Both the position numbers and the translations under genes were made by a program. From assembly GCA_028874985.1 (NCBI GenBank), contig JAPPGI010000030.1:1-64000 (forward strand): a stretch of 64,000 nucleotides of DNA. Direction: 5' to 3'. This DNA comes from Gemmatimonadota bacterium (GTDB taxonomy: Bacteria; Gemmatimonadota; Gemmatimonadetes; Longimicrobiales; Gaopeijiaceae). The notes below the pieces were generated by a model, which saw only the letters and a program-made list of their open reading frames with translations, was not told where the DNA came from and ran no database searches. Positions 603 to 26,827 of this stretch are shown here, piece by piece (within the stretch, counting starts at the first letter, position 1; each line of letters begins with the position of its first letter).

Positions 603-682
603 GGCCGTGGCGGTTCGAGTCCGTCCGCACCATTGCCGGTCCCGTTCGGGGATCGGCTTCAACCTTGCAGGAGGTTACCCAC
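603..682 (+). promoter_or_regulatory. Repeated two-hairpin leader L1
   Basis: Hairpin 1 GGCGG-TTCGAGT-CCGTC; hairpin 2 GCCGGTCCCgttcGGGGATCGGC; then TTCAACCTTGCAGGAGGTTACCCAC-ATG. Confidence 0.7.
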
Positions 683-1264
683 ATGCTGTTGACGTTCACG
701 CACGACGGAACGGGGCGGCGGTCGCCCGGTTATCCCGACGACGACGCGTCCCGCGTTGAGGTGGAGATCACCGCCGCGCACCACACGGCGCACGGCGAGC
801 GCCAGAGCGGGCGCAACTGGCTGCTATGGCCCGAGGATCAGCGCGGCCCGTACCATGTGGACACGTTCGCGGAGGCGGTGTTCATCGCCGCGACCGAGGC
901 CGCCGAGATGTTCGGCGGTGTCGTGCTGTCCGCCGTGGCCGGCGTGCCGGTGCCCGAAGGTTGGGACGCGGTCGGGCGGCTGACCGAATCGTGGCAGGCC
1001 GACCCGCCGTTCTCGGACTTGGCCGAGGTCCTGGCCCGCAGGCGTGCCGCCGTGGTCTACCCGGCGCGGCCCTACCGCGACCCCTACCGCCGACGCGGTG
1101 CTCTGTGGTACCAGATCGCCGAGGAAGGCGCGCCGCGCCCCGTGTGCGGCTACGCGGGCGACCGTGGGCCGGTCTACCCGAGCGCCGCCGTTGCCGAGCG
1201 CGCGGCCCGTCTCGACGGTTACGACGATGTACGCGTGACCGACCGGGAGGCGTTGCCGCACTGA
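683..1264 (+). CDS. Hypothetical protein, first module of the array
   Basis: 193-aa ORF from ATG 683 after GCAGGAGGT; in-frame with track ORF 584..1264. Confidence 0.7.
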   Translation: MLLTFTHDGTGRRSPGYPDDDASRVEVEITAAHHTAHGERQSGRNWLLWPEDQRGPYHVDTFAEAVFIAATEAAEMFGGVVLSAVAGVPVPEGWDAVGRLTESWQADPPFSDLAEVLARRRAAVVYPARPYRDPYRRRGALWYQIAEEGAPRPVCGYAGDRGPVYPSAAVAERAARLDGYDDVRVTDREALPH

Positions 1265-1279
1265 TTCCCCCCCCCCGAT

Positions 1280-1366
1280 CCCGTCCGCACGGTTCGCACC
1301 CGTGCGGGCGGCTTGCCGGTGCTCGCCCCGAGCGCCGGATCACCGCAGGAAGAGGAGGATACCGAT
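1280..1366 (+). promoter_or_regulatory. Repeated two-hairpin leader L2
   Basis: Hairpin 1 CCGTCCGCACGG..CCGTGCGGGCGG; GCTTG; hairpin 2 CCGGTGCTCGCCCCGAGCGCCGG; AGAGGAGG. Confidence 0.75.
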
Positions 1367-1498
1367 ATGGTTCTCTACCAGATCACCAACGCGGCCCGCT
1401 GGCCGGTCGAAGTCTACCGCCGCCACTGTGGCCGGTGGGTGTTCGTCGGTGCCGCCGCAAGTCTCGACGTGGCCCGCAAGCGATGGGGGCCGAAATGA
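1367..1498 (+). CDS. Small hypothetical protein (43 aa)
   Basis: ATG 1367 after leader L2; MVLYQITNAARWPVEVYRRHCGRWVF... Confidence 0.6.
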   Translation: MVLYQITNAARWPVEVYRRHCGRWVFVGAAASLDVARKRWGPK

Positions 1499-1887
1499 GC
1501 GGCACCGCGCCGGACATCCGCGCATCGGTGGCCGAGGACTTGGGGTTGTTGATTCGGATACTGCGGGCCGCGCGCGTCATCATGCGCACGGGCCGGTATC
1601 ACTACACGCAACGCAACCTCACGCACGCGCTCACCGAGGCCGGGGCGCAGATCGAGGCGGCAACGGGCTACGAGGCGGGACCGCTGGTTCGGGCCGTCTA
1701 CTGCGCCCTTGCGTCTTCGGATCGCGTGCCGGACTCGGGCATCGATCCCGAAGCCGACGTCGACCGGTACGCCGAAGGTCTGCACCGTGCCGGAGCTGTC
1801 GCGCTCGTCAACGAGGCGTTGGCCGGACTGTCTGCGGCGCGCTACGCGCTCGACGAATGCGCCGGGATCGGCCATGGCAACGGCTGA
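1495..1887 (+). CDS. Hypothetical protein (130 aa)
   Basis: ATGA overlap with the upstream stop (translational coupling). Confidence 0.65.
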   Translation: MSGTAPDIRASVAEDLGLLIRILRAARVIMRTGRYHYTQRNLTHALTEAGAQIEAATGYEAGPLVRAVYCALASSDRVPDSGIDPEADVDRYAEGLHRAGAVALVNEALAGLSAARYALDECAGIGHGNG

Positions 1888-1910
1888 CCGCCTCCCGTGA
1901 CCCTTTCACC

Positions 1911-1997
1911 ACCGCCGCGCCGGTTCGCCCCGGTGCGGCGGCTTGCCGTCCCCGTTCGGGGGATGGCCGTACACTTCCCCGCAGGAGGTAGCCGGAA
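1911..1997 (+). promoter_or_regulatory. Repeated two-hairpin leader L3
   Basis: Hairpin 1 CCGCCGCGCCGGTTCGCCCCGGTGCGGCGG; GCTT; hairpin 2 GCCGTCCCCGTTCGGGGGATGGC; GCAGGAGGTAGCCGGAA-ATG. Confidence 0.8.
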
Positions 1998-2250
1998 ATG
2001 GCCCGTCAACCCGCTTTCCGTGTCGGTCTGGTGAGTGCCCGTCCCGCGTTTCAGCGGGTCGGATGCGTTGCCCGTGACCGGATGGACGTCTACGCCGACG
2101 ACCAGAGGCTCGGCCAGATCATCAAGAGACCGGGGCGGCTGGTTCATCCATCCGCCGACGCTTCGGCCCGCCCACATCGGGCGGGGCGCTCGGCACCGGA
2201 CGGCCCGCAGCGCCGCCCGCAACATGTCCGACGCCTACGCCATGACATGA
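1998..2250 (+). pseudogene. Small hypothetical ORF, possibly frameshifted
   Basis: ATG 1998 follows a canonical leader. The start frame (MARQPAFRVGLV...YADDQRLGQIIKRP) reads through the next leader to 2402, while another frame stops at 2250. Confidence 0.4.
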
Positions 2251-2260
2251 CCCCTTCACC

Positions 2261-2341
2261 CGTTCGCCCCTTCACCGGGGCGCTCGGGTTTCGCCGTCCC
2301 GGTTCGCGGGGCGGCTTCAACTCCCTACCAAGGGGGACACC
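2261..2341 (+). promoter_or_regulatory. Repeated two-hairpin leader L4
   Basis: CGCCCCTTCACCGGGGCG; hairpin 2 CCGTCCCGGTTCGCGGGGCGG; CTTCAACTCC... Confidence 0.75.
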
Positions 2342-2989
2342 ATGCAGGAAGGCCAAGAGGAAAGGCGGCTGCCGCCCGACGATGCGACATGGCAGCCGGT
2401 AGCCACGTTCCACTACCCGGCGCAGGCGTGGGACTACCGCGCCCCGCTACGCGGACGGTATCGGATTATCTGGAGACCGTGGTGCCGGACGTTCGTAGCG
2501 TTCCGTGACGCCGGTAGCGGTGTGGCGGACCGGCTGGGCGAGTGCGCTACGCTGTCCGGAATCCTGGATGCGGTCCAGAAGGACGCCGACCGGTCGGCGG
2601 TCACCATTCCGCGCGACCTCACGCCGGGGGAGGGACCATTCCCGAACGTGACCCGGTTTCGTGTCGGTGGCGTCCCGGTGGCGATCATCGAGCGCCCGCC
2701 GACGCTGCCGTCGTTCCGCGTTGCGGTGGCGGACAGTCCCGACGCCGCGTTCACGGAAACCGATTGGAGCGGCTGCGATCACGTGGACATGCTCCGGTTG
2801 GGGCCGGGACGGTGGACGGCGCGCGAGGACGGCGACGAGCAACGCCGCGACGGGTTGCCGTCGCTCGTCAACGGCGAGGGCGAGACGTGGAAAGACGCCT
2901 TGCGCGCGTGGCTTGCCGACCGCGACGCCATGCGCCGCGAGGCAACCGCGACGCTCGCCGACCAGATAGGCGGGAACGCCTACGCTTGA
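2342..2989 (+). CDS. Hypothetical protein (215 aa)
   Basis: ATG immediately after leader L4; full ORF. Confidence 0.7.
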   Translation: MQEGQEERRLPPDDATWQPVATFHYPAQAWDYRAPLRGRYRIIWRPWCRTFVAFRDAGSGVADRLGECATLSGILDAVQKDADRSAVTIPRDLTPGEGPFPNVTRFRVGGVPVAIIERPPTLPSFRVAVADSPDAAFTETDWSGCDHVDMLRLGPGRWTAREDGDEQRRDGLPSLVNGEGETWKDALRAWLADRDAMRREATATLADQIGGNAYA

Positions 2990-2996
2990 ACCCATT

Positions 2997-3085
2997 CCGC
3001 CCCGTCGCCGTCATTGGCGGCGGGGCGCTTGCCCGCTGCCCGTTCGGGGCGGCGGGACGCAACGCAGGAACAGGAGGAAAGACCC
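2997..3085 (+). promoter_or_regulatory. Repeated two-hairpin leader L5
   Basis: CGCCCCGTCGCCGTCATTGGCGGCGGGGCG; CTTGCC; hairpin 2 CCGCTGCCCGTTCGGGGCGGCGG; ACAGGAGGAAAG. Confidence 0.75.
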
Positions 3086-3490
3086 ATGCCGGGAACCATC
3101 ACCTACGGCGACGGCTTCAACGTCTTGGACGGTGCCCCGTGCGGCTGCGTCTATCTCGCGACCGACGACGGCACCGGGGAAAGATGGCTGCGCCGGTGCG
3201 GCGACCGCGACGGCTGCGTCTATGTCGGCGCGATCTTCAACGCCGACATCTGCATCGCGCCGAGCCACGGCACCACGGGCCAGATACCGGGCCACCGGAC
3301 GGTCACGGTACGCGGCCGCAAGGTCGGGGCGCTGGTTCGCACCGCCGGCCGCTGGCGGGTTGCGCTGCCCGCCTGGCACGGCACGCGGCACGGCAGTTTC
3401 GCCACCGAGCGCGACGCGGCCCGGTACGTCCGCGACCTTCTCACCGAAGAAGGCCCGCGCGTGCTCGCGCGAGAGATCGCCGCATGTTGA
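3086..3490 (+). CDS. Hypothetical protein (134 aa)
   Basis: ATG 3086 after leader L5. Confidence 0.65.
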   Translation: MPGTITYGDGFNVLDGAPCGCVYLATDDGTGERWLRRCGDRDGCVYVGAIFNADICIAPSHGTTGQIPGHRTVTVRGRKVGALVRTAGRWRVALPAWHGTRHGSFATERDAARYVRDLLTEEGPRVLAREIAAC

Positions 3491-3690
3491 GCGACGCCGG
3501 ACGCCATCACGCCGTCACGGTGGACAGGAGCGAGGCCGGTTTCGTGCGCGAGACGGCGCGCCGCGCCGGGATCGCGACGCAGGGCCGGTACTACCCCGAC
3601 CGGGTCCGGGTAGGCTACTGGACCGACACGACCGAGGACGCCGAGCGGCTGCGCCGTCTCGCGCTTCGCCGCGGCATCCGCGAACGCTGA
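3484..3690 (+). CDS. Hypothetical protein (68 aa)
   Basis: Start ATG overlaps the upstream stop (ATGTTGA); MLSDAGRHHAVTVDRSEAGFVRETARRAGI... Confidence 0.55.
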   Translation: MLSDAGRHHAVTVDRSEAGFVRETARRAGIATQGRYYPDRVRVGYWTDTTEDAERLRRLALRRGIRER

Positions 3691-3706
3691 ACCCTTCCAA
3701 CCCATA

Positions 3707-3787
3707 CCGTCCGCGACCCTTCACCGGGCCGGACGGACTGCCCGCTCCAACCGGGGGCGGGTGTCACTCCATCACAGGAGGCAGGAA
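3707..3787 (+). promoter_or_regulatory. Repeated two-hairpin leader L6
   Basis: CCGTCCGCGACCCTTCACCGGGCCGGACGG; hairpin 2 GCCCGCTCCAACCGGGGGCGGGT; TCACTCCATCACAGGAGGCAGGAA-ATG. Confidence 0.8.
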
Positions 3788-4504
3788 ATGGGACTGACCT
3801 ACCGCGAGCGCCGCGAGCGCCGCGCGGCCCGCCGCGAGGAATGGGCGGAGAAGCGCGAGACCAAGAGCGAGCAGAGCTTCGCCGATGCGGACCGGATCGC
3901 ACAGGGCATACCGCCCGGCCAACCGATCTTGGTAGGCCACCACAGCGAGAAGGGCCACCGCCGCGACCTGGACCGGATCGACCGGGGCATGAGAAAGGGT
4001 TTCGAGCACCGGAACATGGCACAGCACCACCGCCAGCGCGCGGCGGGCATCCGTCGCCAGCTCGACCAGTCGATCTACTCCGACGACCACGACGCCGCCG
4101 AGCGGCTGCGTGAGCGCATCGCCGAGCGCGAGGCCGAGCGCGACCGCATGAAGGCAATCAACCGCGAAGCGGCCAGGATCGCGCGAAAGCACGGGATCAA
4201 GAAGCGGACCGGCCATTGGTTGAACGCCATGACCGACGAACAGGCCGAGACCGTGCGGGCCGTGCTCGTCGAGGTGTGCAAGAAGGTCGAGGCCACCAAG
4301 CGCGAGGTTTCCGACATGATGGCCGGGCTACAACTCAACGGCACGTTGGGCTATCCGAGTTACGCCCTGTCGAATCTCGGGGCGAACATCCGGCGCGACC
4401 GGAACCGCCTTGCGAAGGCCGAGCGCGACGAGGCGCAGCGGGCGAAGGTGCGCGCGGCGCTGGCCGCCGAGCGGGCCGAGGAGACCGCCGAGGCCGCGGG
4501 CTGA
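3788..4504 (+). CDS. DUF3560-like domain protein
   Basis: MGLTYRERRERRAARREEWAEKRE...IPPGQPILVGHHSEKGHRRDLDRI matches the DUF3560 signature (GQPILVGHHSE). Confidence 0.8.
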   Translation: MGLTYRERRERRAARREEWAEKRETKSEQSFADADRIAQGIPPGQPILVGHHSEKGHRRDLDRIDRGMRKGFEHRNMAQHHRQRAAGIRRQLDQSIYSDDHDAAERLRERIAEREAERDRMKAINREAARIARKHGIKKRTGHWLNAMTDEQAETVRAVLVEVCKKVEATKREVSDMMAGLQLNGTLGYPSYALSNLGANIRRDRNRLAKAERDEAQRAKVRAALAAERAEETAEAAG

Positions 4505-4525
4505 CCCCCAACCCCCCCAACCGGG

Positions 4526-4607
4526 CCGGGGACGTGTCACAACGTCCCCAGTCCCATGCTCCCGCCAGTCCGGCGGGACGCTCACCCCCCTGCAGGAGGT
4601 AAGCACC
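4526..4607 (+). promoter_or_regulatory. Repeated two-hairpin leader L7
   Basis: GGGGACGTGTCACAACGTCCCC; CCCGCCAGTCCGGCGGG; TGCAGGAGGTAAGCACC-ATG. Confidence 0.75.
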
Positions 4608-4766
4608 ATGGAGAAGGCCCGATCCTGCTACATCGACCGGAACGGGCGGCTACGGCGGCCCGGTGGCCGCTTCGCGACGCTCGCCGACGTGAAGCGGCTG
4701 AACGCCGAGCGCATCCGCCGCGAGCTTCGCCGGTGGAAGGGCGCGCGCATCCTGCCCGCCCGGTGA
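4608..4766 (+). CDS. Small basic hypothetical protein (52 aa)
   Basis: ATG 4608 after leader L7; MEKARSCYIDRNGRLRRPGGRFATLADVKRLN... Confidence 0.6.
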   Translation: MEKARSCYIDRNGRLRRPGGRFATLADVKRLNAERIRRELRRWKGARILPAR

Positions 4767-4773
4767 TCCCTAC

Positions 4774-4857
4774 CCGCCCGTCCCCTCACACGGGGCGGGC
4801 GGGCCTGCCCCGTCCGTTCGGGACGGGGTGTTCACCCCTTTGCAGGAGGTAACCACC
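4774..4857 (+). promoter_or_regulatory. Repeated two-hairpin leader L8
   Basis: CCGCCCGTCCCCTCACACGGGGCGGGCGG; hairpin 2 GCCCCGTCCGTTCGGGACGGGGT; TTGCAGGAGGTAACCACC-ATG. Confidence 0.8.
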
Positions 4858-5343
4858 ATGCAGGCCATGAAGACGACGCCAGCGGCCACCGTGGCCGCGC
4901 TGCTGCTCGCGACGGCCGACCACATCGAGACCCACGGGTTGCTGCTCGGGATGTTCCAGTTTCACCCGACGGCGACGGGCGAGGACAGTACGCCCGTGTG
5001 CGGCTGCCTGCTCGGCACCATGCGCCACCATGCCGGACTGCCGCCTCCAGCGGCCACGGCGACGCCGGGCCATCCCGTGATGGCCCCCGCGCTCAAGGCG
5101 TTGGACGCCGTCACGCTCGCCGAGCGCCGCGAGTTGGGCGGAGACGACGGCCCGGTCGGGCTGATGGCTTGGAGCGACCATCACGCGGATTTGGTCGCGT
5201 TCACCTACGACGACAAGCTCGCCGGAGTGCGGCACCGCGACCCGCACAACAAAGACGGCGGGCCGCCGCACGGCGACCGGCTCAAGGTCATTTCGGCGCT
5301 TCGCCGGACGGCACACTCGGAGATCGCCAAGAATCTTCACTAG
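4858..5343 (+). CDS. DUF6197-like protein
   Basis: LLLATADHIETHGLLLGMF..CGCLLGTM...LMAWSD; resembles DUF6197-type pattern (AADxIExHGL...C..GA). Confidence 0.55.
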   Translation: MQAMKTTPAATVAALLLATADHIETHGLLLGMFQFHPTATGEDSTPVCGCLLGTMRHHAGLPPPAATATPGHPVMAPALKALDAVTLAERRELGGDDGPVGLMAWSDHHADLVAFTYDDKLAGVRHRDPHNKDGGPPHGDRLKVISALRRTAHSEIAKNLH

Positions 5344-5353
5344 CCGCCCGTGT

Positions 5354-5437
5354 CCCGCCCGTCACGGTTCGACCCGTGGCGGGCGCTTGCCCGGTCCACT
5401 CGGGACCGGGGTTCAACTCCGACAGGAGGCGGGAAAG
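5354..5437 (+). promoter_or_regulatory. Repeated two-hairpin leader L9
   Basis: CGCCCGTCACGGTTCGACCCGTGGCGGGCG; CTTG; hairpin 2 CCCGGTCCACTCGGGACCGGG; TTCAACTCCGACAGGAGGCGGGAAAG-ATG. Confidence 0.8.
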
Positions 5438-5692
5438 ATGACTGTTCGCTTCAGCTACTGCCGTAGCGACGACCCCGAGAGGCAGGTCGATTGCACGACC
5501 GCCGAGTGTCGCTTCGTGCATGAGGTGGCGACCACGGCGCGGAAACTCGCGGAAAACAACTGTCCCCCCGGCCAGGGTCATGTCGTGGTGGACGCCACGG
5601 CCCCCGATGGCACGCTACTGCTCGCGCTGTCGCTTGACGCCCGAGCGATTGGCACACGGACCGACGCGGGGGCAATGCGGCTCCCGTACTGA
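5438..5692 (+). CDS. Hypothetical protein (84 aa)
   Basis: ATG 5438 after leader L9. Confidence 0.6.
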   Translation: MTVRFSYCRSDDPERQVDCTTAECRFVHEVATTARKLAENNCPPGQGHVVVDATAPDGTLLLALSLDARAIGTRTDAGAMRLPY

Positions 5693-5700
5693 ATCCTCTC

Positions 5701-5784
5701 CCCGCCCGTTCCTTCACCGGAGCGGGCGGGCTTGCCGTCCCCGTCCGGGGGACGGCTTCACCACCTTGCAGGAGGTAGAAAGCC
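5701..5784 (+). promoter_or_regulatory. Repeated two-hairpin leader L10
   Basis: CCCGCCCGTTCCTTCACCGGAGCGGGCGGG; CTT; hairpin 2 GCCGTCCCCGTCCGGGGGACGGC; TTGCAGGAGGTAG. Confidence 0.8.
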
Positions 5785-6081
5785 ATGCCCACCACACAGC
5801 TAGACATGGTGGAGATCGTACGCGGAGGTTCCATCGTGCTATGGTCCATCGAAGGACCGGACCCCGACCGGGAGCGGTTCGCCTGGTTCGACGACTACGA
5901 CAAGGCCGTCGCCGCGTTCGCGGACCATCCGAAGGCTACGCACCTGATGGCGAACACGTTCACCGTCTCGCTGGAGGACAGCGACTTGGTGATGGAGCGG
6001 ACGCCGGAGGACGCCGAGGCGCTGGACGCGCGCGGGTGGACCGGATCAAGGCGGGCGAACCGCTGGACCCCGGCGAGTTGA
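5785..6081 (+). CDS. Hypothetical protein (98 aa)
   Basis: ATG 5785 after leader L10. Confidence 0.65.
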   Translation: MPTTQLDMVEIVRGGSIVLWSIEGPDPDRERFAWFDDYDKAVAAFADHPKATHLMANTFTVSLEDSDLVMERTPEDAEALDARGWTGSRRANRWTPAS

Positions 6082-6299
6082 TGGCGGAGGTGCGCGGCTA
6101 CGGCCACAGCGTGCCCAAGCTGTTGGAGATCGCCCGGCAGTGGCACGACAAGGCCACCGAATCCGCAGCCACCTACGGACAGAACCATTGGTGGGCGCGC
6201 GAGGCCCGCCAGCGCGCCGCAACGTTCCGGCTTGTCGCCGCCGAGATCGATTTCGGAGCCGTCTACGGTTCCGGTGCCGCCGTCCAGCCGACCGGCTGA
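6036..6299 (+). CDS. Hypothetical protein (GTG start, overlapping)
   Basis: VDRIKAGEPLDPGELMAEVRGYGHSVPKLLEIARQWHDKATESAATYGQNHWWAREARQRAATF; start uncertain. Confidence 0.5.
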   Translation: MDRIKAGEPLDPGELMAEVRGYGHSVPKLLEIARQWHDKATESAATYGQNHWWAREARQRAATFRLVAAEIDFGAVYGSGAAVQPTG

Positions 6300-6309
6300 A
6301 TCCCTTCCC

Positions 6310-6396
6310 CCCGTCCGGTCCCCTTCACCGGGGGCCGGACGCCTGGCCGTTCCTCACCCGGAGGACGGCGACACCCCACAGAAACAGGGGGCAACC
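6310..6396 (+). promoter_or_regulatory. Repeated two-hairpin leader L11
   Basis: CCGTCCGGTCCCCTTCACCGGGGGCCGGACG; hairpin 2 GCCGTTCCTCACCCGGAGGACGGC. Confidence 0.75.
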
Positions 6397-7281
6397 ATGC
6401 AGGAAGCCAAAGAAGGCGCACCGACCAAGGGCGAGCGCGAAACCGCTTGGCAAGCGGGATTCGACGACGCCACGGATGGCAAGCCGCAGCGCGAGGACTG
6501 GCCGGACCCGGCCACGGCGGGCGACTACCACAGCGGGCACCGCGACGGATTGGCCGCCGTTGCGCAGGCCGAGGCCCAAGAGGAGGAAGAGGCCGAGGCG
6601 TGCGCCGCCGCGACGCTCGCGTATGCGCGCAAGAAGGCCGCCCGTGAAGACGCTTGGGGCCAAGGCTACAGCGACGGAGGCGAAGGCAGGCCGCCGTCCT
6701 TTTCGGGTGACGACGACGACGCGCTGCCGGACTACGAGGCCGGACACGCTGACGGACTGGAGGACTACGAGGCCGCGAAGCGTGACCGGGCGCTACACCT
6801 CCGCGGCGCGTTCGTCACGCTCGAGAACCGGTTCGACAGACTGGCGGGCGACATCGCGGAACACGTCGCCTCCAAGACCGGCGAAGCGGTGGTCGACATC
6901 GCGGAAAACCTGTGCGTGACGTTTCGGGCGATGTGGAAGGCCATCGACCGGGGCGACGGGTCCGACGCCGTGTTCGCCTTGCGCGACACGTTGCGGCAGG
7001 TGGACACGATCGAGGCGGCACGCACCGCCACGGCGCTACCGCCCGGCCGCGCCGCGACCCGCGCCGGTCTCGCCCGCCAGATCGGCAGGAAGCGGGCACA
7101 GTTGGCGAAGATGGGCCGCGACCTGCTCAAGGTCGTGCCGCCCGCGTTCCTGGACGAAGCGGGCGGGGACTTGTGGACGGCGATGGAATCCGCCCAGTCC
7201 GTGACGGATCCGCGCGCCGCCGCCTGGCGGATCGTGCGCCGCGAGTTGGACGTGCTCGTTCACGCCTGGGACGTGCTGTAG
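6397..7281 (+). CDS. Hypothetical protein with two internally repeated AWxxGYxD..G motifs (possibly RMF-like)
   Basis: AWQAGFDDATDGKPQREDW..DYHSGHRDGL and AWGQGYSDGGEGRPPSF..DYEAGHADGL. Confidence 0.6.
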   Translation: MQEAKEGAPTKGERETAWQAGFDDATDGKPQREDWPDPATAGDYHSGHRDGLAAVAQAEAQEEEEAEACAAATLAYARKKAAREDAWGQGYSDGGEGRPPSFSGDDDDALPDYEAGHADGLEDYEAAKRDRALHLRGAFVTLENRFDRLAGDIAEHVASKTGEAVVDIAENLCVTFRAMWKAIDRGDGSDAVFALRDTLRQVDTIEAARTATALPPGRAATRAGLARQIGRKRAQLAKMGRDLLKVVPPAFLDEAGGDLWTAMESAQSVTDPRAAAWRIVRRELDVLVHAWDVL

Positions 7282-7288
7282 GTCCATC

Positions 7289-7516
7289 ATGGCCACCTAC
7301 TACGAAACCGGCATAACCGACAACGGCCCGTTGCGGTATCGCGTCCAGTTGCGCCAGCGCGCCGCGTTCATCGTGGACCAACGACATGTCTGGTATCCGC
7401 CGACGCCGCATGTCTCCAAGCCGACAGCCGAGGACTGGATACCATCGGCGGGCCACCGCATCCCGCCGCACTTCCAGAGGATCGCCGATCCCGACCGGGC
7501 GCTCGCCGACGCCTAA
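7289..7516 (+). CDS. Hypothetical protein (75 aa)
   Basis: ORF 7 nt downstream of the previous stop. Confidence 0.6.
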   Translation: MATYYETGITDNGPLRYRVQLRQRAAFIVDQRHVWYPPTPHVSKPTAEDWIPSAGHRIPPHFQRIADPDRALADA

Positions 7517-7529
7517 ACCCCGACACCAA

Positions 7530-7614
7530 CTCCCGCCCGGATCGCACCGGGCGGGAGGCCTGGCCGTGCTCCATCCGGGATCACGGCACCAACCCCGAGA
7601 CATAGGGGGACATC
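7530..7614 (+). promoter_or_regulatory. Repeated two-hairpin leader L12
   Basis: CTCCCGCCCGGATCGCACCGGGCGGGAG; GCCT; hairpin 2 GCCGTGCTCCATCCGGGATCACGGC. Confidence 0.75.
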
Positions 7615-8259: not shown

Positions 8260-8271
8260 CACCCTTCAACC

Positions 8272-8972: not shown

Positions 8973-8980
8973 GGAACCCG

Positions 8981-9061
8981 GGCACGGCGGGGGTCACGCC
9001 CCGCCGTGCTCTTGCCGGTCCCAGCCGGGGACCGGCTTCACTCCGTACAGGAGGCAGGAAA
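8981..9061 (+). promoter_or_regulatory. Repeated two-hairpin leader L14
   Basis: GCACGGCGGGGGTCACGCCCCGCCGTGC; TCTT; hairpin 2 GCCGGTCCCAGCCGGGGACCGGC; TTCACTCCGTACAGGAGGCAGGAAA-ATG. Confidence 0.8.
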
Positions 9062-9616
9062 ATGCAGACACCGATTGAGGTGCGTCTAGCACTTCGCCAA
9101 GGGTTCCCCGTGCGTTCGCTGGCCAGCCTTGTGCGCGTGGCGATCAAGGATGGGCGGGAAATGCTCGCAAGCGGCAAGGCCGAGCCCGATTTCAGATGGT
9201 TCTACATGCGCCATCGGGACGGCGAATGTACCGCGTGTCTCGCCGGATCCGTGATGTTCGGCACGCTGCGCGAAAAAGGCGAGTTTCAGCCCGAGGGCTA
9301 CGGCGACCTCTTCGACCGCTACCGGGAGACAACGGCCCACGCGCTTCTCGCTCTGGATGATGTGCGCCGGGGCAATGTGGTCACGGCGTACCGGAGACTG
9401 GAAGACGGCGACGACGACGACCGGCACGAGGCCACGCCCATCGAGCAGGCCGCCCAAGGCTACGAGCACGCGAAGGCCGGGGCCGTGGTCGCCGAGTCCT
9501 CTTTCACCGACCGGGAGACCTTTGCGCGGCACCTTGCCAGTCTCGCAGGGCTGGCCACCGACTTGGAAGCGATCGAGTCAGCCGTGGCCGCCGCTCCGGA
9601 AGGCGGGGACAAATGA
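9062..9616 (+). CDS. Hypothetical protein (184 aa)
   Basis: ATG 9062 after leader L14; includes an ECTACLAGSVM motif comparable to the C..GA motif of the DUF6197-like ORFs. Confidence 0.65.
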   Translation: MQTPIEVRLALRQGFPVRSLASLVRVAIKDGREMLASGKAEPDFRWFYMRHRDGECTACLAGSVMFGTLREKGEFQPEGYGDLFDRYRETTAHALLALDDVRRGNVVTAYRRLEDGDDDDRHEATPIEQAAQGYEHAKAGAVVAESSFTDRETFARHLASLAGLATDLEAIESAVAAAPEGGDK

Positions 9617-9816
9617 CCGTCGAGATTCGCGCCACCATCACGGATTTCACCGCTACGGCAACGATCGAAGCGACCAACACCCGCGACGCGATGCGCTACG
9701 CCCGCACATGGGGCGGTAGCAATCTCGCCGAGGAAGTGGCCCGCGACATCGGGCGGGCCGCCTCTGCCGTCCGCTACGGCCACGATCCCGAGGGCTGGCG
9801 GGCGGTCCCGTTGTAG
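9613..9816 (+). CDS. Hypothetical protein (67 aa)
   Basis: ATGA overlap with the upstream stop. Confidence 0.6.
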   Translation: MTVEIRATITDFTATATIEATNTRDAMRYARTWGGSNLAEEVARDIGRAASAVRYGHDPEGWRAVPL

Positions 9817-9833
9817 GCCCCACGGTTCCCCAA

Positions 9834-9920
9834 ACGGACGAAAAGCCGTCGGAAGGCTCTTCGTCCCATGCTCCCGTCAATCGGACGGGGGCGGAAACTC
9901 CGATTACAGGAGGGCGGGAA
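9834..9920 (+). promoter_or_regulatory. Repeated two-hairpin leader L15 (divergent)
   Basis: GACGAAAAGCCGTCGGAAGGCTCTTCGTC; CTCCCGTCAATCGGACGGGGG; TTACAGGAGGGCGGGAA-ATG. Confidence 0.6.
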
Positions 9921-10512
9921 ATGAACGACACAACGATCATCCACGACGGGACGGCGGCGCTCGGGCCCGTTCCGCCCGTTCGGACGCTGAAGGTGGCCCG
10001 CAATGCCGCCGAATGCCTAGAGATGGCGGCGGACCAGATCGAGCGGCACGGCCTGGTCTGCAACGAATGGGGCGACCGCGACGGGCCGTCGTGCGTGGTG
10101 GCCGCAATCCACTGCGCCGCCGGGCTCACTGTGGCCGACTCGGCAACCGGCATTGTCGGGACCGTCGAGGAGATGGAGGCCGCCGGTTACCGCGAACTCG
10201 AACCGCTGGACCGAGGGGCTTGCCGCCGCGTTCTGGACCGTGGACGGCTCCCGGCGAAACAAGGTTCACGCCGAGCACCGCCGCCGCCGCGCGGTGGCGT
10301 ATGCGGCTCTTGGGATGCTGTACGACTGGTTGCACGCCAGCGGACGGCTGACCGACGATGGCACACTGACCGGCCCCGAAAGCCGCCGGGCCGCGCTCAT
10401 GGCGTGGAGCGACGTTCACGATGGCGGGCGGGACGGTTGGGACGCCGCCGTCGTGGTCGCCGCGCTGCGCGGTGCCGCCATCTCGGCCAAGGGCACGATG
10501 GTGACGGGCTAA
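9921..10512 (+). pseudogene. DUF6197-like gene with an apparent frameshift near 10200
   Basis: N-terminal frame ...NAAECLEMAADQIERHGL..VEEMEAAGYRELEPL continues in another frame as TEGLAAAFWTVDGSRRNKVHAEHRRRRAVAYAALGMLYDWLH..LMAWSDVHDGG to 10512; C-terminal LMAWSD shared with the 4858 ORF. Confidence 0.55.
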
Positions 10513-10629
10513 AAAACGCCGAGAATCGCCTCTGACGCCATCGGAGGCCGTGCCGGGGCATCACCGCGGCCCGGAGGCTTGATCGCCCCACGGCGGCTAC
10601 GTGCGGTGGCTTCCTCGCCGTTTCCGTAT

Positions 10630-10715
10630 CCCGTCCGGTCCCTTCGCCGGGGGCCGGGCGGCTTGCCGTCCGAATCGCGGACGGCTGAACCCCACTCCAG
10701 ACAGGAGGCAGGAAC
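10630..10715 (+). promoter_or_regulatory. Repeated two-hairpin leader L16
   Basis: CCGTCCGGTCCCTTCGCCGGGGGCCGGGCGG; CTT; hairpin 2 GCCGTCCGAATCGCGGACGGC; GACAGGAGGCAGGAAC-ATG. Confidence 0.8.
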
Positions 10716-11237
10716 ATGCCCAAACCCAACGTGCCCGCGCTCAAGATGCTCGCAGCCCGGATGTCCGGGCTGCCGAGCCATGCGGCGAGCGGCGACCCGG
10801 ATGGCCCGGCTGTCTACATGTGCGCCTGGATCGAGCACGACCACCAACGGCCCGGCTGCGGCACCGTCGGTTGCATCGCCGGACACGCCGTGGCGCTGGC
10901 CGACGGCCACGAAGCGGCGTCGCGGTTGGCCGCTGAGGGCGGAGTGTCCGACATCCCGCGCCGGGCGCAGGCGGTGCTCGGACTCCACGATCCCGAGGCG
11001 AACTTCCAAGGCAACTACTCGGGGCGGCTGGATCGCGTGGCTCATGCGCTGTTCTATCCGCCGGGTGCGAGGTCCGAGGAGCCCAGGATCCGCGAGATCC
11101 TGGACGCCATCGACGGCGACGACTGCGCGCGGGTGCTGCTGCACATCGCCGACAACCCGGACACCGTGACCGCCGACTCCGTCCGGCTGCTATGGCAAGA
11201 TGTCGAGGACATCCGCCGCGACGCGCTGTACGGCTGA
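10716..11237 (+). CDS. Hypothetical protein with CGTVGCIAGH motif
   Basis: HQRPGCGTVGCIAGHAVALADG; paralogous to the 13207 ORF. Confidence 0.7.
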   Translation: MPKPNVPALKMLAARMSGLPSHAASGDPDGPAVYMCAWIEHDHQRPGCGTVGCIAGHAVALADGHEAASRLAAEGGVSDIPRRAQAVLGLHDPEANFQGNYSGRLDRVAHALFYPPGARSEEPRIREILDAIDGDDCARVLLHIADNPDTVTADSVRLLWQDVEDIRRDALYG

Positions 11238-11329
11238 CTTCACCCTTCGGCGGAAGACACCGAAAGCGGCGAACGCCAAATCCCCCAAGGCGCGCGCCGA
11301 AACCGCCGGAAACGGCGCTGAACATTCCC

Positions 11330-11415
11330 CAACAGGACCGCGACGGGTCAAGCCGTCGCCGTCCCCTGCTCATTGCCGCTGTGGCGTGAGCGCAACCCCC
11401 TACAAGGAGGCAGGA
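11330..11415 (+). promoter_or_regulatory. Repeated two-hairpin leader L17 (divergent)
   Basis: GCGACGGGTCAAGCCGTCGC; GCTCATTGCCGCTGTGGCGTGAGC; TACAAGGAGGCAGGA-ATG. Confidence 0.6.
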
Positions 11416-11892
11416 ATGGAACAACAGACGGAAGCGCCAACGGTGGACGTGCCGTCCGGCAGGTCCGTGCCCCAGCGCGGCCGCAAGGTGCGGGACCAAC
11501 GGGTCTACCGAACGGGCATGTTCAACGTGGCTGTCACGGCAGACAAGCGGTGGGCTTACGTCGAAGTCCGCGACCCGGACGGCAAGCGGCTGATCATCGT
11601 GTCGGTGGTGCAGGGCGTCACCCGGCAGCACATCCGGCAGGCCGAACAGCAGGCCAACGCGGTGGCGGTCGCATTGGCTGACGCGGCGGGCCCGGGCGCG
11701 CTAGCGTTCGTTGACCGGATGGCCGCGGCACGGCAAAGCCGCATCGACGCCATCGACGCGACCCGCGACCACGGCGTGCTCGACGACGAAGCCGCCGAGG
11801 AAGCCTACGATCTGTCGCTTGAGCGCGCGGCGCTGACCAAGACACGGGCGCTGATCCGGCGCGAGATCGCCAGACGGAACGACCCCCGATGA
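11416..11892 (+). CDS. Hypothetical protein (158 aa)
   Basis: ATG 11416 after leader L17. Confidence 0.65.
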   Translation: MEQQTEAPTVDVPSGRSVPQRGRKVRDQRVYRTGMFNVAVTADKRWAYVEVRDPDGKRLIIVSVVQGVTRQHIRQAEQQANAVAVALADAAGPGALAFVDRMAAARQSRIDAIDATRDHGVLDDEAAEEAYDLSLERAALTKTRALIRREIARRNDPR

Positions 11893-12104
11893 GCGGCGAC
11901 GACCACATCGACCGCTTCTTCCTCATGGACGCCGAGGGTGTCCATGCCGGAGAAATCCACCGGACGGAAAGCGGGGCGGTGGCCGCCGCCGAAGCGCATC
12001 CCGGGAAGGTCGCGGTGCAGCGACGCAGCTACTTCCTCAACGACATGGCCGACAAGGTGGTGTGGATGCCGGACGGTTGCGACGACTGGCCACCGGACGA
12101 ATGA
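11889..12104 (+). CDS. Hypothetical protein (71 aa)
   Basis: ATGA overlap with the upstream stop. Confidence 0.6.
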   Translation: MSGDDHIDRFFLMDAEGVHAGEIHRTESGAVAAAEAHPGKVAVQRRSYFLNDMADKVVWMPDGCDDWPPDE

Positions 12105-12130
12105 GCATCCGCGCCAAAGGCTGAACCCCC

Positions 12131-12216
12131 ACCGACCGGGGGCGGCTCGAACCCGCCCCCGGTCCTTGCGCTCGCCATCCGGGCGAGTGCGTGACTCCAT
12201 CACAAGGAGGCAGGAA
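12131..12216 (+). promoter_or_regulatory. Repeated two-hairpin leader L18
   Basis: ACCGGGGGCGGCTCGAACCCGCCCCCGGT; CCTT; hairpin 2 GCGCTCGCCATCCGGGCGAGTGC; GACTCCATCACAAGGAGGCAGGAA-ATG. Confidence 0.8.
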
Positions 12217-12606
12217 ATGAGCACATCCAAGGCTCACTCGGCGCTGTGGGATGCCTTGTCCGCAATCGTGGAAAGCGGGGCGCTCAAGGCGTTCCACGCA
12301 TCCAACACGGACGCGCTGCACGACCGGGCGGTGAAGGCGCTCGACTTGGCGGCCGCCGAGCGGGCAGCCGGGAACGGCAACGGCAGAATCACCGTGACCG
12401 TCCACCATGGCGAGCACCGGCACGACGACGACATCGGGCTGGACAACGCCCGGCAGTGGGCCGCGAACCGGCTCGCCGAGTGCGGCGAGATCGAGCTTCC
12501 CGCCGACGACAGCGATCCCGACCCGTCGGGCATCGACGACGCCACCGTCGTGCAGATGGTCGCCGACGACATCGGGGCGAACCTCGACTACGAGAAACTC
12601 CGGTAG
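12217..12606 (+). CDS. Hypothetical protein (129 aa)
   Basis: ATG 12217 after leader L18. Confidence 0.65.
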   Translation: MSTSKAHSALWDALSAIVESGALKAFHASNTDALHDRAVKALDLAAAERAAGNGNGRITVTVHHGEHRHDDDIGLDNARQWAANRLAECGEIELPADDSDPDPSGIDDATVVQMVADDIGANLDYEKLR

Positions 12607-12610
12607 TCCC

Positions 12611-12931
12611 ATGCGGCACACGACCAACTTCGCCACCGCTGCCAAGCGGCTGGCCCCCCATCTTGGCATCACGATGACGAGCACGGGCCGCACCTGGCTG
12701 ATCGAAAACGATGAAGGACCGTGGCCGGCGCCCTTGAGCGCGGCGCAGGTGCTCGGAAGGCTCATCATGTTCGCGACCGCCGACCACGGCATGACGTACC
12801 GCCAGGTGGCCGGTCTGTGCCGCTTGCGGTGCAACGTCCGGCCCGACCGGCTCATGGTTGGCCGGGGGGCCGGTTGGTGGACCCGCGAGATCGCACGGAT
12901 GCTGGTCGCCGCCAACGGGAAACGGCCATGA
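12611..12931 (+). CDS. Hypothetical protein (106 aa)
   Basis: Starts 5 nt after the previous stop. Confidence 0.6.
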   Translation: MRHTTNFATAAKRLAPHLGITMTSTGRTWLIENDEGPWPAPLSAAQVLGRLIMFATADHGMTYRQVAGLCRLRCNVRPDRLMVGRGAGWWTREIARMLVAANGKRP

Positions 12932-13113
12932 ACCGGCCCGCATGGACCGAACGCGCCCCGCGCAAGCTCACCGACCGCCTGAAATGGCACATGCGGCACA
13001 TGGGCTACCGCCCGTGCCCGAAGTGCGGGGCATGGCGCAAGGCGAGGTCGCCGCACTGTCCCATCGAGGGAAGTTGCCCGCCGGCGCACCCCCGCGTAAG
13101 ACCTGTAGCGTAA
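12928..13113 (+). CDS. Small zinc-ribbon-like protein (61 aa)
   Basis: ATGA overlap; CPKCGAWRKARSPHCPIEGSC. Confidence 0.55.
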   Translation: MNRPAWTERAPRKLTDRLKWHMRHMGYRPCPKCGAWRKARSPHCPIEGSCPPAHPRVRPVA

Positions 13114-13115
13114 CC

Positions 13116-13206
13116 CCCCGCCGGGGCGCTTCACCGCGTCCCGGCGGCTTGGCCGGACTCGAACCCGTCGAGACCCGGCATCACTCCCCAACAGGAGGCA
13201 CGGACC
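13116..13206 (+). promoter_or_regulatory. Repeated two-hairpin leader L19
   Basis: CCGCCGGGGCGCTTCACCGCGTCCCGGCGG; CTTG; hairpin 2 GCCGGACTCGAACCCGTCGAGACCCGGC; TCACTCCCCAACAGGAGGCACGGACC-ATG. Confidence 0.8.
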
Positions 13207-13683
13207 ATGAAGGACACAACGCGACTCCTCGAAATGGCGGACTACTTCGACGGACTGCCGAGTGCGCACGACGTTCACGCCGGTGACGCCGCGGTCGATA
13301 TGAGTGCCTGGCGGTGCTCGATCCGCAGCAAGCGAGGCTGCGGCACCGTCGGTTGCATCGCCGGGCACACCGTCATGCGCTACGACGGAAGGACGCCTTC
13401 CGGCTTGTCATGGGCGGCCAGGGCTGCGGACTTGCTCGGACTCTGCGACGCGAAGGACTACACAGTGGGGGGACCGTATGGACGCATCTTCGAGGGCGAT
13501 CCCGTCCGCTACCGCCGGGTCACCGTGGCCGGTGCGCTGTTTCACCCGCCTTCGGAGGTCGGCGACGTGACCCACATCGACGGCAGCCAGTGCGCGACCG
13601 TGATGCGGGCCGTCGCCGAGGATGCCGACACCATCACCGCCGACGAGGTAGGAGAGTTGTGGCGGCGGGTCACCGCCGGGTAG
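13207..13683 (+). CDS. Hypothetical protein with CGTVGCIAGH motif
   Basis: KRGCGTVGCIAGHTVMRYDG; ALFHPP and C-terminal DADTITADEVGELW match the 10716 paralog (ALFYPP, NPDTVTADSVRLLW). Confidence 0.7.
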   Translation: MKDTTRLLEMADYFDGLPSAHDVHAGDAAVDMSAWRCSIRSKRGCGTVGCIAGHTVMRYDGRTPSGLSWAARAADLLGLCDAKDYTVGGPYGRIFEGDPVRYRRVTVAGALFHPPSEVGDVTHIDGSQCATVMRAVAEDADTITADEVGELWRRVTAG

Positions 13684-13699
13684 CACCACCCTTTGGATC

Positions 13700-13778
13700 G
13701 GGACGGACCAAACCGCTTCGGTCCCTTGCGCCGTCCACTCGCGGACGGCGCTTCACTCCCCACAGGAGGCAGGAACCA
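13700..13778 (+). promoter_or_regulatory. Repeated two-hairpin leader L20
   Basis: GGACGGACCAAACCGCTTCGGTCC; CTT; hairpin 2 GCGCCGTCCACTCGCGGACGGCGC; TTCACTCCCCACAGGAGGCAGGAACC-AATG. Confidence 0.75.
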
Positions 13779-13955
13779 ATGTCAAGAGCCAACGCGCGAC
13801 GGACACTGACCACGGGGGACGGTCGCAGGGTGACCGTTCTCGGCGACTTCGTTCTCGCGGACCCCGACCTGATGCGGGAGGTCGAGGACGGCGAACACCC
13901 GGGCATCGTGGCCGATCTGAAGAAGATCGCCGCCGCCTCGCACCCGAACGCCTAG
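13779..13955 (+). CDS. Small hypothetical protein (58 aa)
   Basis: ATG 13779 after leader L20; MSRANARRTLTTGDGRRVTVLGDFVLADPDLMREVEDGEHPG... Confidence 0.6.
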   Translation: MSRANARRTLTTGDGRRVTVLGDFVLADPDLMREVEDGEHPGIVADLKKIAAASHPNA

Positions 13956-13968
13956 AAGCCCCCCTTCT

Positions 13969-14053
13969 TCGCCGGAACACCTTCGCCGGTGCTCCGGCGC
14001 TTGCGCCGTCCGTTCGGGGCGGTGCTTCACTCCACGACAGGAGGCAGGAAACC
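13969..14053 (+). promoter_or_regulatory. Repeated two-hairpin leader L21
   Basis: GCCGGAACACCTTCGCCGGTGCTCCGGC; GCTT; hairpin 2 GCGCCGTCCGTTCGGGGCGGTGC; TTCACTCCACGACAGGAGGCAGGAAACC-ATG. Confidence 0.8.
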
Positions 14054-14554
14054 ATGCCCAACTGGGTAACCAACAACGTCAGCATCTTCCACGAGGACCA
14101 ATCGGTCATCGACGAGATGTTCGACATGCTCACCCGCACGCCCGAGAACGGCGAAGAGAACGACGACGATCGCCGCGTCACGTTCACGAAGCTCGTGCCG
14201 ATGCCGCCGGTGCTCGAAGGCGCGATCGACAGCCGCCACCGCAAGGTGCTCACGATCATATACACCGACGACGAAGGCCGCCACCGAGAGCGGCCCGCGA
14301 CGGAGAAGGAGGTGGCCGAAATGGAGAAGGTCGGCCACACGAACTGGTACGATTGGCGCGAAGCACATTGGGGCGTGAAGTGGGATGCCAGCCACAGCAC
14401 GGCCACGAAGGGCGACCGCAGCATCTCGCTACGCTTCGACACGCCTTGGGGACCGCCCGAACCGATCATCGACGCGATCCGCGAACGCTGGCCCGAGGCC
14501 GAGGTCGGCGGCGGCTGGCTCGAAGAAGGCCACCAAAGCTGCGGGCCGTTCTAA
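14054..14554 (+). CDS. Api92-like / DUF1281-type ferredoxin-fold protein
   Basis: MPNWVTNNVSIF...FTKLVPMP...NWYDWREAHWGVKWDA...SLRFDTPWGPPEPIIDAIRERWP is characteristic of Api92-like proteins. Confidence 0.8.
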   Translation: MPNWVTNNVSIFHEDQSVIDEMFDMLTRTPENGEENDDDRRVTFTKLVPMPPVLEGAIDSRHRKVLTIIYTDDEGRHRERPATEKEVAEMEKVGHTNWYDWREAHWGVKWDASHSTATKGDRSISLRFDTPWGPPEPIIDAIRERWPEAEVGGGWLEEGHQSCGPF

Positions 14555-14646
14555 CCCCCCGGCGGGGCGCACCGTCACGGGTGTCCCCGCCCCTTTCGTC
14601 TCGCCGTTCGGGCGGGACACTCACTCCGAATCAGGAGGCAGGAACC
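14555..14646 (+). promoter_or_regulatory. Repeated two-hairpin leader L22
   Basis: GGCGGGGCGCACCGTCACGGGTGTCCCCGCC; hairpin 2 GTCTCGCCGTTCGGGCGGGAC; TCACTCCGAATCAGGAGGCAGGAACC-ATG. Confidence 0.8.
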
Positions 14647-15015
14647 ATGACCAGATGCACAGCGCCCGACTGCGCAAACGCGACCAAGGCGTACCGCTGG
14701 TGCGTCAGGATGGGACGGAAGTACGGCCTGCTGCTCGGGGCGGACACCGACAACCACGCCATGATCGCGACGCCGCACGCGCAGCGCCGGGCGAGCATCC
14801 GGCGGGCCGTCCTGGACTGCTGCGGTCTCGCCCGCTTCGAGGCCCCGAGCGACGAGGCCGCGGACAAGGCGTCCACCAAGATCGCGGACCAGGCGCGCCG
14901 CAACGCGCTCATCACGTCGGCCTACGCGGGCAACGTCTCGATCGCGACCCCGGCGACGCAACGCCGTGACGGGTCACGTGGCCGCGTGCTCGCCATGCAC
15001 CGCATGACCGAATGA
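14647..15015 (+). CDS. Hypothetical protein (122 aa)
   Basis: ATG 14647 after leader L22. Confidence 0.65.
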   Translation: MTRCTAPDCANATKAYRWCVRMGRKYGLLLGADTDNHAMIATPHAQRRASIRRAVLDCCGLARFEAPSDEAADKASTKIADQARRNALITSAYAGNVSIATPATQRRDGSRGRVLAMHRMTE

Positions 15016-15024
15016 ACCACCAAC

Positions 15025-15104
15025 CCGACCGGAGGCGGTCGAACGCCCCCGGTCGCATGTTCCGTCAGGAGGACGGGACTTCACTCCATCACAGGAGGCA
15101 GGAA
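15025..15104 (+). promoter_or_regulatory. Repeated two-hairpin leader L23
   Basis: CGACCGGAGGCGGTCGAACGCCCCCGGTCG; hairpin 2 GTTCCGTCAGGAGGACGGGAC; TTCACTCCATCACAGGAGGCAGGAA-ATG. Confidence 0.75.
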
Positions 15105-15602
15105 ATGGGCAACACCAACTTGCTTGAGGGCGTGAAGTGTCCACGCTGCGGCAACGACGAGCGGCTGCGCATCGCCGGGACGGTCTGGCTCGACATGACC
15201 GACGACGGCACGGTGCCGTCCGACGAACCTGGACGGGGCGACCACGAATGGGACGGAGACTCAATCGCCGAGTGCCCGAAGTGCGACTACATGGGCAGGT
15301 TCGCGGCGTTCCACGGGATACCGAGAGGCACAATCGTGCTCGGCCAGAACACCGAGCGAATGGCCGAGGCCGCCAAGCGGGATCCGGCGGTCCAGGCCGT
15401 GCGGCGAGACCTCGACGGCGAGCGCATCACGAAGCTGGAGGCCAAGGCCGCCCACTTCGATCTCGCGCTCGACAACCTGCTGCACCACGCGACCGTGCGG
15501 CCCGCCGGTTCGCCCAAACAGGTCCGCGACATGATCTGCGACGCGGTCACCGACGCGAACCGGGGCGTCAACAGCGAGACCCGGATGCGGAGGGAGCCAT
15601 GA
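15105..15602 (+). CDS. Zinc-ribbon-like hypothetical protein (165 aa)
   Basis: VKCPRCGNDERLRI...ECPKCDYMG (two CxxC pairs). Confidence 0.65.
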   Translation: MGNTNLLEGVKCPRCGNDERLRIAGTVWLDMTDDGTVPSDEPGRGDHEWDGDSIAECPKCDYMGRFAAFHGIPRGTIVLGQNTERMAEAAKRDPAVQAVRRDLDGERITKLEAKAAHFDLALDNLLHHATVRPAGSPKQVRDMICDAVTDANRGVNSETRMRREP

Positions 15603-16123
15603 CCCCGATCGACATCCACCCGCCGGAGGACTTCGGACTTGACATCTCGGTGCGGCAGGTCGCCCCCGACGACGAGCGGCACAAGAGGCTTCGCAGCGTC
15701 TTGAGCGTGCCGACCACGCGGCACCTCTGGACGCCGGAGGACGCGATCACGTTCACGCCGCCGCTGTCGGACCTCGTCTACGGTGACGGGCGCGCGCTGC
15801 TGGCCATCACGACGACCCACGACCGGCCCGCGTTCTGGCTGGTGCGGATCGACAGCCGGTGGGACATCGGAACCCCTTCGTTTCCGGCCGAGAACGCCCC
15901 CTACGTTGGGGAGTACGTCGATCTCATCGTGGCCAACCTCGAGTCGGAGTTCGGCAACGGCACACCCGGCTACTACGACTGCCAAGAGGAAGAGGAACGC
16001 GACCCCTATCCGGCCATCAACGCGAACGACGGCCAGTCCTGGAGTTGGCACAGCTGGCCGGTCGAAGCGGGACCGGTCGAACCTCACTCGTACTGGCCGC
16101 ACACCACCATCGCGACGCAGTGA
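15599..16123 (+). CDS. Hypothetical protein (174 aa)
   Basis: ATGA overlap with the upstream stop. Confidence 0.65.
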   Translation: MTPIDIHPPEDFGLDISVRQVAPDDERHKRLRSVLSVPTTRHLWTPEDAITFTPPLSDLVYGDGRALLAITTTHDRPAFWLVRIDSRWDIGTPSFPAENAPYVGEYVDLIVANLESEFGNGTPGYYDCQEEEERDPYPAINANDGQSWSWHSWPVEAGPVEPHSYWPHTTIATQ

Positions 16124-16213
16124 CCCGCCCCCGCCGGGGCGCTTTCGACGGCACCCCGGCGCTTGCCCGGTCCACTCGGGACCGGGCTCGACTCCACAAC
16201 AGGAGGCAGGAAA
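16124..16213 (+). promoter_or_regulatory. Repeated two-hairpin leader L24
   Basis: CGCCGGGGCGCTTTCGACGGCACCCCGGCG; CTTG; hairpin 2 CCCGGTCCACTCGGGACCGGG; CGACTCCACAACAGGAGGCAGGAAA-ATG. Confidence 0.8.
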
Positions 16214-26635: not shown

Positions 26636-26827
26636 CGGTACCCTCCTGGTTACCAGTTTTCTAGTGATACTGAATGATACCCAATGAGGACATTTGAGAC
26701 AACAGACGCCCGGTGGTCTCGCCGGAGCGGGTTCGCGACAGGATACCGTAAGTCCATGACACATAGTCATTTACGACACGACATGACACGTCTTGACACC
26801 ATCTGATCCCTCCTGCGACAACCGACC

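Follow-up and report, generated by a model that had tools for sequence, protein, structure and literature searches.

Why would a bacterial gene array carry, before nearly every one of its modules, a leader whose stems drift in sequence while its loops and geometry stay constant? The question is raised by a 64-kb stretch of DNA from a Gemmatimonadota bacterium (hereafter the window), whose first base is also the first of the 122-kb contig C114 in a draft genome of 4.25 Mb. An array of 24 leaders occupies positions 602-16213, every one on the + strand and immediately 5' of a start codon, with the upstream stop codon mostly 6-25 nt before the leader; as the genome is a draft, the array may extend past the contig start. 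The arrangement suggests that dozens of genes share one signal by which they are controlled at the level of RNA. Our preferred answer, held with evenly balanced confidence, is that the leaders are intercistronic mRNA structures of a new, cis-acting family which control translation initiation through a common partner. The basis in hand is the fold, its covariation, the strand, the geometry, the placement and the restriction to mobile elements of one genus.

Each leader follows the same order: hairpin 1 (H1; 12 bp, with a 6-7 nt loop of the form N-UCR-NN), a linker that is most commonly CUU (CTT), hairpin 2 (H2; 9 bp, loop mostly 5 nt), a short stretch such as TTCACTCC, a strong Shine-Dalgarno sequence (SD) and ATG, and a weak helix over the SD is often present 3' of H2. 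From the start of H1 to ATG there are 79-89 nt in 24 of 24 window leaders. Several modules contain more than one gene, and the leader then stands before the first gene only. An earlier model-made description of this DNA (the sequence-only reading) had reported about 24 copies of a two-hairpin leader before nearly every module. The number and span were borne out, all copies lie on the same strand, and the example hairpins it quoted are correct; H1 is however degenerate in leader 1, and the architecture had to be amended by the weak helix, in which CTCC or CCCC pairs with the SD.

A covariance model (R1) was built from 13 of the 24 leaders and recovered all 24 at 39-84 bits, the 11 held-out leaders among them at 39-61 bits. 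Positions (all +) and R1 scores were as follows: leader 1 (H1 degenerate, H2 intact), 604-682, 42.8 bits; leader 2, 1281-1366, 40.7 bits; leader 3, 1912-1997, 73.6 bits; leader 4, 2259-2341, 63.7 bits; leader 5, 2998-3085, 44.6 bits; leader 6, 3707-3787, 59.5 bits; leader 7, 4523-4607, 50.2 bits; leader 8, 4773-4857, 74.4 bits; leader 9, 5356-5437, 78.9 bits; leader 10, 5701-5784, 82.4 bits; leader 11, 6312-6396, 53.0 bits; leader 12, 7529-7614, 39.2 bits; leader 13, 8270-8351, 61.0 bits; leader 14, 8981-9061, 77.4 bits; leader 15, 9836-9920, 62.3 bits; leader 16, 10631-10715, 50.5 bits; leader 17, 11335-11415, 57.3 bits; leader 18, 12134-12216, 77.3 bits; leader 19, 13118-13206, 55.3 bits; leader 20, 13695-13778, 71.7 bits; leader 21, 13970-14053, 84.3 bits; leader 22, 14561-14646, 39.8 bits; leader 23, 15026-15104, 59.7 bits; and leader 24, 16132-16213, 83.5 bits. 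The best R1 match in the window that is not a leader reached 21 bits. Weak antisense matches lie inside the array at 4586-4635 (-) and 15000-15055 (-), with 19 and 21 bits, and their position is not leader-like.

Pairing is maintained across copies to an extent that shuffling does not reproduce. When the 13 leaders were aligned with MAFFT, 93.8% of cells were paired, versus 59.3 +/- 2.4% in shuffled and 41-52% in slid controls, and both sides had changed in 19 of the 21 pairs. Across 146 leaders of the genus, in an alignment fitted to the model and biased towards the model structure to that degree, pairing was 95.9% (control, 56.9%) and the covariation score 0.889 (control, 0.213). For a test free of this bias, 138 leaders, and 91 after an 85% redundancy filter, were aligned without structure and all column pairs were ranked by a corrected G statistic; in both sets the predicted pairs made up 14 of the 15 top-ranked column pairs out of about 3,500. 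Many of the leaders are related by descent. Covariation is thus very strong, the structure-free alignment included. The sequence-only reading had claimed selection on structure as opposed to duplication of a fixed repeat, and comparison with shuffles, structure-free covariation and the strand tests given below all support this. Neither of the checks it proposed refuted it: the G-statistic ranking was positive, and the model proved specific.

The strand on which the structure forms was then read from the mismatches that pairing tolerates. With symmetric weights that treat G-T and A-C alike, H1 contained 200 G-T versus 23 A-C combinations and H2 139 versus 53. Between near-orthologous leaders of different genomes, 82 one-sided transitions kept pairing on the sense strand and 29 fell into the mirror class, these counts not being independent, as leader pairs overlap. 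Folding energy was lower on the sense than on the antisense strand in 127 of 138 leaders. Strand-biased mutation could contribute, but is unlikely to produce a nine-fold excess. Given the excess of G-U over A-C and the better folding of the sense strand, the selected molecule is single-stranded and mRNA-sense and is not a DNA palindrome.

While most stem positions carry less than 1 bit of information, the unpaired parts are nearly fixed. Bases 2 and 3 of loop 1 (T and C) carry 1.92 bits each and base 4 is a purine, so that UCR is found within loop 1 in 143 of 149 leaders; the linker begins with C (1.31 bits) and loop 2 tends towards RNNCG. Fixed unpaired bases combined with free stems form the pattern that would be expected from recognition by a common partner. 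The geometry is also constant, with a median of 27 nt from the end of H2 to AUG (interquartile range 25-28) and mostly 6-9 nt between the GGAGG of the SD and the start codon. The third, weak helix over the SD can form in most window leaders, and where the SD is of the GGGGG type it is matched by CCC (leader 4) or CCCC (leaders 11 and 12). Among 141 leaders the region 3' of H2 together with the SD folded at -6.12 kcal/mol, as compared with -5.35 +/- 0.15 kcal/mol when its upstream part was shuffled (0.8 better, about 5 standard deviations) and -5.77 +/- 0.14 kcal/mol when parts were swapped between leaders (native 0.35 better, about 2.5 standard deviations). The SD-covering helix is therefore likely, though not proven, to be real.

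We favour control of translation initiation by a shared trans-acting partner because of the tight coupling to the SD and AUG, the SD-covering helix, the fixed loops and the fixed 27-nt distance between H2 and AUG. A promoter scan of the array returned no promoter-like sites, and with no room between stop codon and H1 (median 12 nt) the cistrons are probably co-transcribed; the array would thus be transcribed into long polycistronic mRNAs. In the gaps between cistrons this RNA would fold into H1, the CUU linker and H2 with its RNNCG-type loop, the third helix masking the SD and H2 ending about 27 nt before AUG, close to where the 30S footprint begins on its upstream side. With their constant loops, linker and spacing, the leaders could then offer a common face to one putative trans-acting factor, either a protein encoded by the element or host or an RNA, and this factor would set the translation initiation of all cargo cistrons jointly. 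Cargo might for example be held down while the element is integrated and released on transfer or induction.

Several points weigh against this proposal. The SD is weakly sequestered (mean unpaired probability 0.44), and in the arrays of two genomes, G016 and G017, its partner stands out less clearly. No trans factor was found: family searches with the two cargo proteins that are best conserved gave no informative match. Structure prediction for two conserved cargo proteins gave one low-confidence model and one without a PDB match; the Api92-like model matches no solved fold. mRNA processing or stabilisation could also make use of intercistronic hairpins near a ribosome site. The shared post-transcriptional switch, recognised by one protein or RNA, that the sequence-only reading had suggested is compatible with the data, and we judge it most likely because loops, linker and geometry stay constant while stems drift.

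The alternative that survives best, and one we still consider rather unlikely, is that the leaders serve RNA processing or stability, with a host nuclease cutting or stopping at H1 or H2 to give separate, end-protected cistrons, the hairpins shielding the 3' end upstream and the 5' end downstream. The hairpins are indeed strictly intercistronic and their stems very stable (medians of -23 kcal/mol for H1 and -14 kcal/mol for H2). The end of the upstream open reading frame (ORF) lies within 60 nt of H1 in 120 of 136 inter-leader intervals, and H1 starts a median of 12 nt past the upstream stop codon, a position that would suit end protection. For pure protection, however, the near-invariant UCR of loop 1 and the fixed 27-nt distance to AUG would be superfluous, and the stems are shorter than the usual substrates of RNase III.

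A role in transcription elongation or polarity appears improbable. Here the RNA would recruit or block a factor on RNA polymerase or Rho, in the manner of antitermination or by covering the gap against Rho loading. The arrays are long, each module junction holds an untranslated gap of about 95 nt, and the part of this gap between stop codon and H1 is in most leaders rich in C (55%) and poor in G (14%), all of which would fit such a role. The put RNAs of phage HK022, a tandem pair of hairpins with a cis effect on RNA polymerase, also count in its favour. Signals of the put kind are however needed once per transcript and not once per gene, neither H1 nor H2 is followed by a U tract, terminator-like sites are not in excess, and the tight link to the SD and AUG would be left unexplained. 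At least 5 T within 8 nt were found after H1 in 9 of 149 leaders and after H2 in 2 of 149; with so few U tracts and no excess in the terminator scan, intrinsic termination was rejected, as was a promoter function, the scan of the array having shown no promoter-like sites.

A site acting at the DNA level, whether a single-stranded hairpin for cassette recombination, a promoter in single-stranded DNA or a replication primer, is very improbable and was largely refuted by the strand and motif tests. It is suggested by the tyrosine integrase that adjoins the arrays, by module swaps whose junctions fall at leaders (at leader 22, for example, a block of homology stops at the ATG that follows), and by SSB, DUF3560 and DUF2958 cargo, which resemble genes from transferred plasmid regions. 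Like the attC sites of integrons, the leaders keep structure without sequence and stand between promoterless genes with a tyrosine recombinase beside the array. In attC it is the bottom strand that folds (PMC2727003), whereas the leaders fold the top strand, form two separate hairpins and lack R boxes, the R'/R'' pair (RYYYAAC and GTTRRRY) in attC arrangement being present in 0 of 149. The window integrase gave weak XerC/XerD NCBIfam matches below cut-offs, and the only 'integron integrase' name came from the broad NF040815 at 22 bits (cut-off 220); the integron reading was rejected on the motif scan and the strand test. The Frpo/ssi single-strand promoters of plasmid leading regions likewise place hairpins before mobile-element cargo, SSB included, yet they need -35/-10 elements (PMC11541004), which the leader stems do not conserve; the stems are short and variable, and the folded strand is the sense strand. 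A single-stranded DNA promoter, to which the SSB, DUF3560 and DUF2958 cargo had pointed, was not supported, since there were no promoter-like sites and stem positions are weakly conserved. A DNA-level site would have no use for a fixed SD and start codon, and the leader is consistently tied to neither its upstream nor its downstream gene. Strand, missing R boxes and missing promoter elements together make a DNA-level role unlikely. Finally, that the leaders are palindromes arising by chance at 70% genomic GC, or copies of a repeat duplicated recently, has negligible probability: short stems come cheaply where arm G+C is 83%, but this reading is refuted by a covariance model that stays silent elsewhere in the window and across 371 genomes from the rest of the class, and by pairing that holds while stems vary among copies.

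Translation control through a common partner was compared with known systems. Nearest in layout are the start-associated sequences (SAS) and extended SAS (ESAS) of cluster K mycobacteriophages, which share with the leaders many copies per mobile genome, a single orientation, a place directly before start codons and an inverted repeat that precedes a motif with an SD. The ESAS authors state that RNA pairing is not generally supported by changes in the two repeats, and favour a DNA-binding site (PMC3203893). The likeness drawn in the sequence-only reading thus stands for layout, while in respect of RNA pairing the leaders show the opposite. ESAS is a single 17-bp repeat pair of conserved sequence, found in other hosts and with another sequence, whereas the leaders have two hairpins with free stems, strong covariation and fixed loops. 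The SAS core GGGATAGGAGCCC by the start codon was not matched (the leader consensus is TTCACTCC-N-ACAGGAGGCAGGAA), nor was an ESAS-type arm consensus without RNA covariation, as leader arms vary freely and covary. Nearest in logic is RegA of phage T4, a translational repressor of about 30 mRNAs whose sites have no clear sequence or structure (PMC3014915). In both cases dozens of genes of a mobile element could be governed by one factor at their initiation regions, although RegA sites are unstructured and the leaders highly structured; no RegA homologue turned up, no search aimed at RegA having been made. A catalogue of 104 candidate structured RNA motifs, largely in Rfam (PMC2864571), contains cis-regulatory candidates that resemble the leaders as covarying folds before start codons derived from comparative genomics. 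The leaders differ in having no Rfam match: none exceeded the gathering score in the window, and a further comparison gave weak matches only (E 0.7-0.9), on the opposite strand. To our knowledge, none of the catalogued motifs stands before almost every gene in an array of 16-25 genes, and cis-regulatory RNA structures normally occur once per operon. With a covarying sense-strand structure at a fixed distance upstream of start codons, the leaders fit the general kind of cis-regulatory structured leader; judged from sequence, they appear to be a new family within it, unusual in giving each module of an entire mobile element its own copy.

Searches with covariance models found about 125 further leaders, spread over nine more genomes of this genus. 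Model R2, applied with a cut-off of E 0.001 (the E-values are rough), detected leaders in 10 of the 23 genus members, while 371 further genomes from the class yielded none. Across 395 genomes of the phylum R1 gave a single match outside the genus (G366, 31 bits), which, being isolated, was taken as chance. Arrays hold about 13-25 leader copies, one per module. The relatives include metagenome-assembled genomes of Gemmatimonadetes/Gemmatimonadota such as SB0662_bin_23 and RHO3_bin_72, and their isolate names hint that they may be of marine or sponge origin.

The arrays are cargo of integrative elements. Directly 3' of the window array, and without a leader, lies a tyrosine recombinase (17057-18121, +; Pfam PF00589, E 3e-14) with a homologue in the same place in other arrays; in nine contigs a homologous integrase stands at or beside the array end. 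A primase-helicase (D5/Toprim or VapE-like) or Prim-Pol gene is near the array in several contigs. In G021 the array lies within a 301-kb contig near a BCCT transporter gene and is therefore integrated there. Cargo comprises DUF6197, Api92-like DUF1281_C, DUF3560, DUF2958, LPD29, SSB and RusA-like proteins, and such families are typical of plasmids and integrative elements. In the window these include a DUF6197 gene (4858-5343, +; PF19698, E 6.9e-8), with several paralogues in arrays, and an Api92-like DUF1281_C gene (14054-14554, +; PF18406, E 1e-7), whose family occurs in 7 array contigs. Cross-contig comparison placed two genes with CxxC motifs (15105-15602 and 16214-16684, both +) in families found in 9 of 10 array contigs. 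PADLOC returned no anti-phage defence match for 57 cargo proteins. A phage origin was rejected, as no leader was found on 68 viral contigs with relatives of the Api92-like protein; the leader pattern and one CxxC family had no match in viral contigs, and neither a phage DNA match nor a plasmid protein match was obtained.

Arrays are largely collinear among close species, with modules gained, lost and moved. Leader 22 and its homologue precede different genes in G000 and G014, the homology block stopping at the ATG, and strict linkage to the upstream or to the downstream gene does not hold. No end overlap indicative of circular contigs was found. In G016 and G017 a Toprim-D5 gene lies past the integrase, in the same circular order as in G027:C16 with different cut points; in the latter, Prim-Pol and D5_N/DUF5906 genes (L055:6800-9534) are divergent from the array start. 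Also divergent from an array start is a gene of G019:C88 (L066:7703-10117) that fuses a GmrSD-type nuclease domain to a Schlafen AlbA_2 domain and is possibly a defence gene. About 7 kb past the window array is a second integrase with Arm-DNA-bind_3 and Phage_int_M domains (25457-26770, -), adjoined by a gene for a 1143-aa protein of Ig-like repeats (26831-30259, -). Further on, at 47137-50650, are two neighbouring Xan_ur_permease-family genes with C-terminal extensions, one having a weak HATPase_c_2 match.

Four solo leaders were found outside arrays (G000:C29, G017:C349, G027:C78 and G014:C214; loci L070:2137-3339 for G000:C29, L069, L152 and L153). They lie just 3' of the stop codon of an IS1595/ISXO2-type transposase and 5' of a short ORF. 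The majority of the remaining IS1595-type genes detected in these genomes lack a leader. Two types of mobile element that are unrelated to each other thus share the leader within one genus. At G014:C214 there is further hairpin-forming sequence 5' of the start codon. A second leader-like structure in G027:C78 (L165:2729-2809, 31 bits) is downstream of the IS1595 cargo ORF, with no obvious SD or start codon.

More tentatively than translation control itself, we suggest an RNA code that spans mobile elements: the integrative elements and IS1595 transposons of one genus would mark each of their cargo cistrons by one shared leader fold, a single dedicated factor would switch or license translation of the whole cargo, and new genes would join by landing behind a leader. 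The roughly 150 leaders, with free stems and constant loops, are in effect natural compensatory mutants of one RNA, and provide both a covariation benchmark that is ready for use and a clear starting point for identifying the factor by which they would be read. If the leaders are such a switch, they would offer a rare example of post-transcriptional control coordinated across an entire mobile element, and would reveal how genes, once captured, come under common control.

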